From assembly GCA_903891325.1 (NCBI GenBank), contig CAITEC010000102.1:1-64000 (forward strand): a DNA stretch of 64,000 nt. The letters run 5' to 3'. This document shows positions 1,595-9,627 of this stretch, in pieces. A program made the translations under genes and the position numbers. The notes beneath the pieces are model-generated. The model saw only the letters and a program-made list of their open reading frames with translations, was not told where the DNA came from and made no database searches. The stretch comes from an uncultured Opitutaceae bacterium (GTDB lineage Bacteria > Verrucomicrobiota > Verrucomicrobiia > Opitutales > Opitutaceae). Positions within the stretch are counted from its first letter, which is position 1; every line of letters starts with the position of its first letter.

Positions 1595-1700
1595 GAGCCG
1601 ATCCAAGGGGTCATATCTGGACTCTGGACAAAAATCAGCCCACCGGAAGTTCCAGCTGCCTTTTTGTCCAAAGTCCAGATATGACCCCTTTGCCCGGTCC
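1595..1700. repeat. 106-bp palindromic repeat, family A, copy 2
   Basis: Direct-oriented copy apparently identical to 1030-1135. Confidence 0.9.
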
Positions 1701-6460: not shown

Positions 6461-6619
6461 TGGCGCAGGTGGAGTTTTGCGGAGGTCGTTTGACATGACC
6501 CGTTCGGCCGATCCTACCTGGATTCGGATGGCGAAGCAGAGTGCTCCGTAAACACATAGTGATCCTTCTGCCATATACCGTGAAGCTTGCCTGTGTGCCC
6601 ACCGTACTGGTAACTCAGT

Positions 6620-6726
6620 GCCAAGCCAGTGGGTCAGGTTGAACATTGTACCCCGGGTGGAATAGCGGCATCCCAAGAAACAGGCGGGTTGGGAACAATG
6701 TTCAACCTGACCCGCTGTCTTGGGCT
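6620..6726. repeat. REPIN-like palindromic element, family C, copy 1
   Basis: gccaagccagTGGGTCAGGTTGAACATTGT...ACAATGTTCAACCTGACCCGctgtcttgggct. Confidence 0.9.
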
Positions 6727-6821
6727 GAAGGATGTCGATCCTGGCGCTGGAGACGTACTTAAAGAGCATGCTGAGGTACGGGGCTAGCCTGCCCGAGCAG
6801 CGGCCGCCGCTACCCGGTGGT

Positions 6822-7061
6822 TCAGACCGCGATGGCGCGGACGCTCAATATCTCATCATCCCTGAGCGCCTCGACGGCTTTCGCTGCAACAGCGACCACG
6901 GCCAGAGTCTGCCCTTTTGCCCCGAGGACTTCGGCCGAGTATCCTTCTTCACCATCAGGGGCCACATGGTGCTCCACCAAGCGCAGCAAATCACCGCGGC
7001 GAAGCCGGTATTCCGGCAGATCGCGGGCGAGAGCGACATCGGTGTACAGTGGGAACGTCAT
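6822..7061 (-). CDS. DUF4926-like protein, 79 aa
   Basis: MTFPLYTDVALARDLPEYRLRRGDLLRLVEHHVAPDGEEGYSAEVLGAKGQTLAVVAVAAKAVEAL: DUF4926-like pattern. ATGA overlap with the upstream gene. Confidence 0.7.
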   Translation of the reverse strand: MTFPLYTDVALARDLPEYRLRRGDLLRLVEHHVAPDGEEGYSAEVLGAKGQTLAVVAVAAKAVEALRDDEILSVRAIAV

Positions 7062-7459
7062 TTGGCGAAAACTTCTATGGGGATCAATGTTATGAACTTT
7101 GTCGTTCCTGACAAGCGTTCCGTCATCCAGATCGTCTTGACCCGTAGGTCCACACCGACCGGGCCATGTAGAATTCCGACGATTTCATAGTACTGGCCGA
7201 ACTTATTCTCGTCGACCAACTGGGCCTCGCCCTCATTCAGGATCACCGCCAAGCCCGCAATCAACGCCGTTGGATTTGCAGGCGTAAACCCCGCCCGTTC
7301 CAAAAACGCTGATTTGTCGCTACGATTCTGCCGAACGAGCAGATAGTTCGTGATTTTATCTGGGGCAATTGTTGCGTCGCGAGGAAGCTTCATGACGAGT
7401 CGGCGGCCTTTGAGTCCCCAATGTTCGCAAATTTCATGGAGAAGGAGTTCGCTGCCCAT
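7058..7459 (-). CDS. DUF6883-like protein
   Basis: MGSELLLHEICEHWGLKGRRLVMKLPRDATIAPDKITNYLLVRQNRSDKSAFLERAGF...GQYYEIVGILHGPVGVDLRVKTIWMTERLSGTTKFITLIPIE: DUF6883-like pattern. Confidence 0.65.
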   Translation of the reverse strand: MGSELLLHEICEHWGLKGRRLVMKLPRDATIAPDKITNYLLVRQNRSDKSAFLERAGFTPANPTALIAGLAVILNEGEAQLVDENKFGQYYEIVGILHGPVGVDLRVKTIWMTERLSGTTKFITLIPIEVFAK

Positions 7460-7511
7460 CGACCCTGACCCATTCGACCTTGGTGGGCGGCGGTGCCAGC
7501 ACGTCAATCAT

Positions 7512-7616
7512 GCCAAGCCAGTGGGTCAGGTTGAACATTGTTCCCTGCTCATCGTCATTTCGGACGGGACCAATCTCTCTCGGTACAATGTTCAACCTGA
7601 CCCGCTGGATTGGGCT
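7512..7616. repeat. REPIN-like palindromic element, family C, copy 2
   Basis: gccaagccagTGGGTCAGGTTGAACATTGT...ACAATGTTCAACCTGACCCGctggattgggct; arms shared with 6620-6726, centre different. Confidence 0.9.
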
Positions 7617-7685
7617 CAAGGGCTATTGATCGTTTTGGCATCACAATGGGAATCGGGGTAAGTTCAATCTGATGAATCGTGCGCC

Positions 7686-8817: not shown

Positions 8818-9627
8818 TCACCCGCGAATAGTCTCCTTCATTTCGACAGTTTTGGTTTGAAGCTCGATCGCCCCGCCCTGCTGCCATTCGTCCGCACCCG
8901 GTTGGATCGCCGGCGCGACGATTGCGGCCCGGCTCGTTTTCTTCTCTTCCGGAGAAATGCCGTACTCTGTATTGCGGTCGGCAAGGAGCTCGGGATTGGC
9001 CTGGCCGTCCGCGGTGAAGGCCATCATGAGCTGAGGTATGCCGAGCGGCACTTTGTCGTCGCGGTCGACCTGCCAGGTGTACCAGGTTTTTCCGTAGGTG
9101 CCGACAAAACCCTTCATCACTTCCATTTCGGCAGCGTCGGGAATTCCGGGTGCGGTCAACTGCCCCGACTTCACCTCATAGACGTGGCTGTGCCAGAACT
9201 TCCTCTCTTCGGCTGGAAGCGTCTCGAATAGCCTCGGGCTGATCACATATTCGATCCCGACGAGTCGTGCATGCTTTTTGTCGGAGTCATAGATGGAGCA
9301 CTGGCGAAGGTCCCTGCTGACGTGCGAGCAGTAGTGATGGGCGATCACCTGCCTTTTGAGGTCGCCGCTGTAGAAGTGGAGCCCGCACACATGGGCGTCG
9401 ATGGCCGACAGCGGTCCTTCGCCCTGAAGACGTCCACCCCGTTCCACGACCCCGGCTCCGCCAGCGGGAATTGGCGAACACACCAGCGTATCGTCAATTG
9501 CATCCGTCCGCCCCTTTGCCGCCGCGAGGCCGATGCACGAAGCAACCGCCGTAGCCGCCAAAGACGCCGTTTTCACAAAATCCCTGCGGGAGACAGGGGG
9601 TCTGCCATTTTCGCTCGGTGATTTCAT
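8818..9627 (-). CDS. DUF1264 / oil-body-associated-protein-like, with twin-arginine signal
   Basis: SRRDFVKTASLAATAVASCIGLAAA then IDAHVCGLHFYSGDLKRQVIAHHYCSHVSRDLRQCSIYDSDKKHARLVGIEYVISPRLFETLPAEERKFWHSHVYEVKSGQL. Confidence 0.8.
   Translation of the reverse strand: MKSPSENGRPPVSRRDFVKTASLAATAVASCIGLAAAKGRTDAIDDTLVCSPIPAGGAGVVERGGRLQGEGPLSAIDAHVCGLHFYSGDLKRQVIAHHYCSHVSRDLRQCSIYDSDKKHARLVGIEYVISPRLFETLPAEERKFWHSHVYEVKSGQLTAPGIPDAAEMEVMKGFVGTYGKTWYTWQVDRDDKVPLGIPQLMMAFTADGQANPELLADRNTEYGISPEEKKTSRAAIVAPAIQPGADEWQQGGAIELQTKTVEMKETIRG

Follow-up and report, generated by a model that had tools for sequence, protein, structure and literature searches.

The two small genes of the DUF6883 and DUF4926 families found in the window (i.e. 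the whole stretch of 64,000 nucleotides from an uncultured Opitutaceae bacterium analyzed here) most probably form a toxin-antitoxin (or toxin-immunity) module, in which a DUF6883 RNase of the BECR fold would be blocked by the DUF4926 protein, and to which the palindromic elements on both sides of the pair do not belong. We put the probability of this reading at roughly 70%. We also consider it somewhat better than an even bet that the pair represents an undescribed toxin-antitoxin family spread across phyla, whose toxin is a colicin D-like tRNase and whose toxin domain has been exchanged between toxin-antitoxin modules and phage head proteins (MuF and LPD3 polyvalent proteins). If this domain has indeed passed between chromosomal or plasmid modules and phage heads, then the phage-injected effector and the plasmid-maintenance toxin would be one family, opposed by one family of SH3-like antidotes. 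The sequence-only reading had already suggested a translationally coupled, toxin-antitoxin-like pair, and this suggestion is now strongly supported by the pairing across phyla, the MuF fusions, the tandem immunity-type genes, the predicted BECR-RNase fold and the invariant Lys-Tyr-Thr set.

Table 1. Features discussed in the text; positions are those of the window, except where another locus is named.
Feature	Position	Strand	Length	Basis or remark
DUF6883 gene, predicted toxin	7058-7393	minus	111 aa	Pfam PF21814, homologue starts, AF2, Foldseek, invariant residues
DUF4926 gene, predicted antitoxin/immunity protein	6822-7061	minus	79 aa	Pfam PF16277, overlap, AF2
Predicted catalytic codon K13	7357-7355	minus		invariance
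Predicted catalytic codon Y17	7345-7343	minus		invariance
Predicted catalytic codon T102	7090-7088	minus		invariance
Palindromic element, family E, copy 1	6619-6731	plus		resembles a TIRtron TIR dimer; lies downstream of the pair
Palindromic element, family E, copy 2	7511-7621	plus		oriented like copy 1, with an unrelated centre; lies upstream of the pair
Family E end sequence				GGGTCAGGTTGAACATTGT
Palindromic elements, family A	1030-1135 and 1595-1700			106/106 identical, direct, GGGTCA...TGACCC frame
Genes between the family A pair	1142-1342 and 1342-1575	minus		66-aa gene and C-terminal ~78 aa of a longer protein
TAT-signal gene	8818-9627
Tandem DUF4926 genes	L025 796-1490	minus		three genes
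Family D palindromes	L103 2189-2247 and 2540-2604 (C116)			in frame in a 717-aa TPR-protein gene
Flanked Y1_Tnp gene	L108 1413-2446 (C88)
Flanked Y1_Tnp gene	L110 1783-2836 (C87)
Flanked Y1_Tnp gene	L098 4502-5621 (C69)
Flanked Y1_Tnp gene	L047 (C110)
Flanked Y1_Tnp gene	L048 (C23)

Both family assignments of the sequence-only reading are confirmed by Pfam above the curated cut-offs: the DUF6883 protein scores 48.5 bits (E 1.2e-12) against a cut-off of 27 bits, and the DUF4926 protein 39 bits (E 5.1e-10) against 29.1 bits. The minus strand and the 4-nt ATGA overlap of the two genes had also been read correctly, but the start of the DUF6883 gene had been placed at 7459, which adds 22 amino acids absent from the homologues. 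The first residue of the latter aligns with the internal ATG at 7393 (MKLP...), and therefore the gene probably comprises 7058-7393 rather than 7058-7459. According to the Pfam scan, DUF6883 is the sole domain of the window protein, which has no MuF domain, and searches of PADLOC, NCBIfam and PHROGs returned no match for either protein. The promoter scan of the locus found one weak and uninformative site, within the DUF6883 gene.

An adjacent DUF4926 gene is present in 36 of the 42 DUF6883 loci inspected, which come from Verrucomicrobiota, from cyanobacterial and other plasmids, and from viral contigs. The pairing holds in 14 of the 15 loci from Verrucomicrobiota (the phylum of the window), in all seven cyanobacterial plasmid loci examined, in seven of the eight IMG/VR contigs, and in 8 of 12 further plasmid loci (from Pseudomonadota, Deinococcota, Actinomycetota, Bacillota and one cyanobacterium). 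Three loci (L118, L140 and L141) have weak or unclassified DUF4926 candidates alone, and near DUF6883 in three others (L019, L142 and L146) no DUF4926 gene was found; hence not every DUF6883 gene is paired with an antitoxin gene. The two genes often overlap by 4-11 nt, the 4-nt variety being common in the Verrucomicrobiota loci, and both gene orders occur (the reversed one at L117 and L138). In two of the exceptional loci, on a Streptomyces plasmid (L142) and on Methylobacterium radiotolerans pMRAD03 (L146), DUF6883 lies within proteins of ~500 aa that have no other Pfam domain and are possibly other carriers of polymorphic toxins.

These neighborhoods bear on the possibility that the pair functions as an operon for housekeeping or regulation, devoid of any toxic function. 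The search of the openly accessible literature found DUF6883 nowhere named and DUF4926 named once, and both families are known here by computation, which leaves some room for such a role. However, the distribution of DUF6883 is patchy (12 of 388 genomes of the phylum in the Pfam scan), plasmid-borne pairs lie beside partition-type and restriction-modification genes, DUF6883 is fused to phage MuF and LPD3 proteins, and DUF4926 occurs in tandem copies behind one DUF6883, so that we regard a housekeeping operon as very improbable. The earlier proposal that the pair might be a defence module has gained circumstantial support: in Anabaena cylindrica pANACY.03 it is located between hsdS and hsdR of a type I restriction-modification operon, and in Rhizobium etli (pRsp8C3b, L140, 1-2836) DUF6883 directly follows a gene for a BPTD_3080 family restriction endonuclease. 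The C-terminus of the latter enzyme exhibits a weak match to DUF4926 (E 0.0014), and it is possible that this protein is an antitoxin-endonuclease fusion.

The link to phages comes from domain architecture. DUF6883 forms the C-terminal domain of MuF head proteins in two loci. In an IMG/VR contig (L118) the MuF domain (PF04233, E 1.6e-17) is followed by C-terminal DUF6883 (E 4.4e-22), and a 62-aa gene with a DUF4926 match below the cut-off (E 0.0011) overlaps the stop codon of the fusion; in an Anoxybacillus plasmid (L141) the fusion belongs to a portal-MuF-scaffold-capsid operon and is followed by an overlapping 56-aa gene of no significant family. In another locus (L025) DUF6883 forms the end of an LPD3 polyvalent-type protein, and three DUF4926 genes lie in tandem behind it. 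These genes resemble each other, suggesting amplification of the immunity gene. Temperate phages are known to encode a family of polymorphic toxins in which the toxin domain forms the C-terminus of a MuF protein (Jamet 2017, PMC5576092), and the MuF and LPD3 fusions with adjacent DUF4926 genes are a polymorphic-toxin/immunity architecture. The BFVD structure search with DUF6883 likewise has phage minor capsid proteins as its top matches (TMq 0.89 and 0.78). A tblastn search of deposited phage genomes detected no DUF6883. The viral contigs were scanned with a narrow DUF6883 alignment, the broad one being too poor in conserved stretches.

The AF2 model of the window DUF6883 protein, built from its sequence and eight viral-contig homologues, has a pLDDT of 91.4 and a pTM of 0.83. 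In this predicted structure three N-terminal helices (residues 11-19, 26-32 and 41-54) precede four strands (58-63, 66-76, 82-92 and 98-109). This HHH-EEEE topology agrees with the BECR fold, in which one or more N-terminal helices precede four or five antiparallel strands. A sequence search for solved relatives in the PDB yielded none that was convincing, whereas Foldseek against the PDB returned at E <0.01 only chains A, C, E and G of 6cp9 (TM 0.58-0.67, E 4e-4 to 2e-3), the next match having E 0.014 and TM 0.29. The similarity is modest (TM about 0.65, rmsd about 4 A, 15% identity). 6cp9 is CdiA-CT Kp342, a tRNase of the BECR fold that depends on EF-Tu/EF-Ts/GTP. It is reported to share with EC3006 a Lys-Tyr-Thr triad, in which the Lys and Tyr are 3-4 residues apart and the Thr lies near the C-terminus (K157/Y160/T255 and, in EC3006, K204/Y208/T330; PMC9086364, PMC6851490). 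A conserved Ser or Thr in strand 4 is a general feature of the BECR fold (Iyer 2017, PMC5512222). In DUF6883, K13 and Y17 are invariant in 40 of 40 sequences, with the spacing of K204/Y208 in EC3006, and of the 39 sequences that include position 102, in the last strand, every one has Thr or Ser there. Thus K13, Y17 and T/S102 match the triad in order and in predicted secondary structure, a correspondence that is based on the published positions of the known enzymes and not on residue-level superposition. Taken as a prediction from the model, DUF6883 would be a colicin D-like RNase toxin of the BECR fold.

A toxin-antitoxin or toxin-immunity module could nonetheless be built around a DUF6883 protein that is not an RNase, its BECR-like shape and conserved Lys, Tyr and Thr residues serving some other purpose, e.g. 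the modification of nucleotides or proteins, or binding. The remoteness of the fold match would agree with this, as would the existence of inactive or presumed RNA-binding members of the BECR fold (Iyer 2017, PMC5512222) and the fact that K27 is no less invariant than the three residues proposed. We nevertheless consider it unlikely, given that the only solved structure to stand out is a tRNase with the same three types of residues, all of which are invariant in the 39-40 sequences of DUF6883.

The AF2 model of DUF4926 (pLDDT 84) is a barrel of the SH3/Tudor type with one C-terminal helix, and its fold matches are of the same type and weak (best E 0.04); neither Pfam nor the model reveals a DNA-binding domain, and there is no HTH match in Pfam. 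We speak of it as a predicted antitoxin or immunity protein with an SH3-like barrel. The immunity proteins of the Kp342/EC3006 group cover the active site of the toxin (PMC9086364, PMC6851490).

From the computed features (pairing, overlap, fusions, predicted fold and invariant residues) we infer the RNase activity, the tRNA substrate, the direct binding and the biological role as follows. DUF6883 would be a metal-independent BECR RNase, closest to the tRNases colicin D and CdiA-CT Kp342, acting via the Lys-Tyr pair of its first helix (K13-x3-Y17) and the Thr/Ser of its last strand (T102), and it would probably cut tRNA or another RNA, bringing translation to a halt. Translation of DUF4926 would be coupled to that of DUF6883 through the overlapping ATGA, and the resulting protein would bind DUF6883 directly, probably over the active site. 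Loss of the antitoxin or imbalance of the two proteins could then set the toxin free, which may serve the maintenance of the plasmid or locus, or cause growth arrest under stress or phage attack. The palindromes would be terminal-repeat dimers of the TIRtron type that have settled beside the pair, outside the module, where they may serve as putative transcription insulators or terminators.

That the pair is bounded by two palindromic elements with common outer arms and different centres, as the sequence-only reading had it, is real. In direct orientation the left halves of the two copies (35 nt) are 97% identical and the right halves (40 nt) 90%, and each element, of ~110 bp, is an inverted repeat with arms of 32-33 nt, 91% complementary, and a centre of 37 nt. 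The centres are unrelated, and therefore one copy is not simply derived from the other. A 20-mer of the arm occurs four times in the window and is expected zero times in shuffles; an 18-mer marks only four half-sites, hence two elements, in the whole assembly (3.29 Mb, 94.7% complete). As single-stranded DNA the elements fold far better than shuffles (z about -7 to -8), while the half-sites alone do not (z +0.4 to +1.1). The exact 19-mer of the arm is absent from the genome-contig and viral-contig collections, and Rfam gave no meaningful match. Their former identification as REPINs has to be abandoned, because the half-sites form no hairpin of their own (even though GTGG, as in REPs of the GTAG type, is present in the left half) and because the 3.29-Mb assembly contains no more than two copies. 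Integron attC sites do not fit either: the RYYYAAC...GTTRRRY boxes are not matched, and the outer ends, TGCCAAGC ... (C/A)TTGGGC, have no conserved GTT.

A better fit than REPINs is offered by TIRtrons, whose terminal inverted repeats (TIRs) have GGGGWSAS in common and are often arranged as dimers or in clusters (Di Nocera 2013, PMC3733652), an arrangement that corresponds to TnpAREP subclass 2.1 (Quentin 2018, PMC6006769). The halves of family E, as we call the two elements, agree with this consensus at seven of eight bases (TGGGTCAG / CGGGTCAG), and those of families B and D agree fully. A genome-wide search with the GGGTCA...TGACCC frame gave 24 matches vs 2 in the reversed control, and the palindromic matches fall into families A-E. 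Such palindromes, of at least five families, are found on contigs C29, C30, C38, C68, C69, C85, C102, C116 and C130 of the same genome, and two other genomes contain many of them with family sequences of their own (G026, 23 vs 5 in the reversed control; G043, 37 vs 3). Y1_Tnp genes lie between single, inversely oriented half-sites of families A, C and D, and the Y1_Tnp genes on C110 and C23 have terminal repeats of their own (22/22). Altogether five Y1_Tnp genes possess inverted terminal repeats of the GGGTCA type, the sequence of which differs from gene to gene, and these genes provide good material for matching TIRYT transposases to repeats. None of the six Y1_Tnp genes found in the assembly has family E ends, which, given its 94.7% completeness, may be explained by loss or by a gap. 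Family E is therefore assigned by likeness to its siblings and should be regarded as TIRtron-like only, its palindromes resembling TIR dimers.

It is tempting to consider the pair and its palindromes as one composite cassette that is mobilized at its outer ends by a Y1 (TIRYT-type) transposase or exchanged by recombination between the direct copies, as had been proposed from the sequence alone. The only two family E copies of the genome are 0.8 kb apart and flank exactly the gene pair, an arrangement that looks striking because the probability of two random sites falling within 900 bp is about 5e-4; in addition, DUF6883 was found in 0 of 12 genomes of the same genus searched, and Y1 transposases of the sibling families are present in this genome. 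However, close pairs of one family are common here whatever the DNA between them. A family A pair on C69 flanks a lipoprotein-like gene, a family D pair on C116 lies within one ancestral-looking gene for a 717-aa TPR protein, and the window contains a second pair, of family A (Table 1). As such pairs recur with unrelated DNA between them, local clustering is a property of the repeats themselves, and as they occur even inside one ancestral-looking gene, a pair of flanking copies is no proof of a mobile cassette. The in-frame family D palindromes encode peptides like VRPPEVK..FFTSGG.TPF, i.e. repeat-encoded protein segments. The gene bounded by the family A pair of the window is 5'-truncated compared to its intact homologues of 209-226 aa (in G033, where an 83-aa partner gene follows, and on contig C20 of the same genome), and as the truncation point coincides with the palindrome, a rearrangement at the repeat is suggested.

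The cassette is further opposed by the unrelated centres of the two family E copies and by the lack of a Y1 transposase with E ends in the assembly. The palindrome scan revealed comparable repeats on both sides at none of 21 other DUF6883 loci, and we discarded the idea that the palindromes are part of the module. Neither an empty nor a recombined site was found among the relatives searched: the TAT-signal gene has one homologue (50% identical, in G009), the gene order around the cassette is not shared by that genome, and the neighboring GNAT gene has distant matches only, so that no empty site can be read. We consider the mobile cassette distinctly unlikely.

Most likely, DUF6883-DUF4926 is a conserved, so far unnamed toxin-antitoxin or toxin-immunity family with a specific, testable mechanism, and the repeats beside it are ordinary ones of the TIRtron type. 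If this is true, two families of unassigned function, present on plasmids, on chromosomes of several phyla and in phage head proteins, gain a specific and quickly testable one: that of an RNase toxin, for which three candidate catalytic residues can be named, and that of its antidote. It would also make it easier to annotate MuF head proteins, as many of their C-terminal extensions contain no known domain. The matching palindromes around the pair do not indicate a mobile cassette, since dimers of the TIRtron type cluster on their own account.

Among the known systems, the pair resembles type II toxin-antitoxin modules in its two small overlapping genes, conserved pairing, plasmid carriage and patchy distribution; however, here the toxin gene usually comes first, neither Pfam nor the model gives DUF4926 a DNA-binding domain, and both families are absent from the PADLOC and NCBIfam libraries. 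The palindromes are similar to TIRtron TIR dimers in that they are inverted pairs of unstructured halves that start with GGGTCA(G), near GGGGWSAS, and in that siblings of theirs (A, C, D and two more families) border Y1_Tnp genes, but family E deviates by one base (TGGGTCAG/CGGGTCAG), has two copies with unrelated centres and lacks a cognate Y1 transposase in the assembly. With the MuF polymorphic toxins DUF6883 shares the position at the C-terminus of minor head proteins, whose genes overlap with a tiny gene behind them, although the gene of the window has no MuF domain. Compared to CdiA-CT Kp342, EC3006 and colicin D, DUF6883 has no sequence similarity detectable by the PDB search and mostly occurs as stand-alone proteins of 110 aa; unlike CdiA-CT, it has no CdiA/CdiB delivery genes beside it in the window, its partner is a small SH3-like protein rather than one of the CdiI types, and its additional conserved residue is Lys27, whereas His and Arg are listed for the CDI toxins. 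Nonetheless, it shares with this group the predicted helices followed by four strands, for which 6cp9 is the sole confident fold match, as well as the Lys-Tyr pair in the first helix and the Thr in the last strand.
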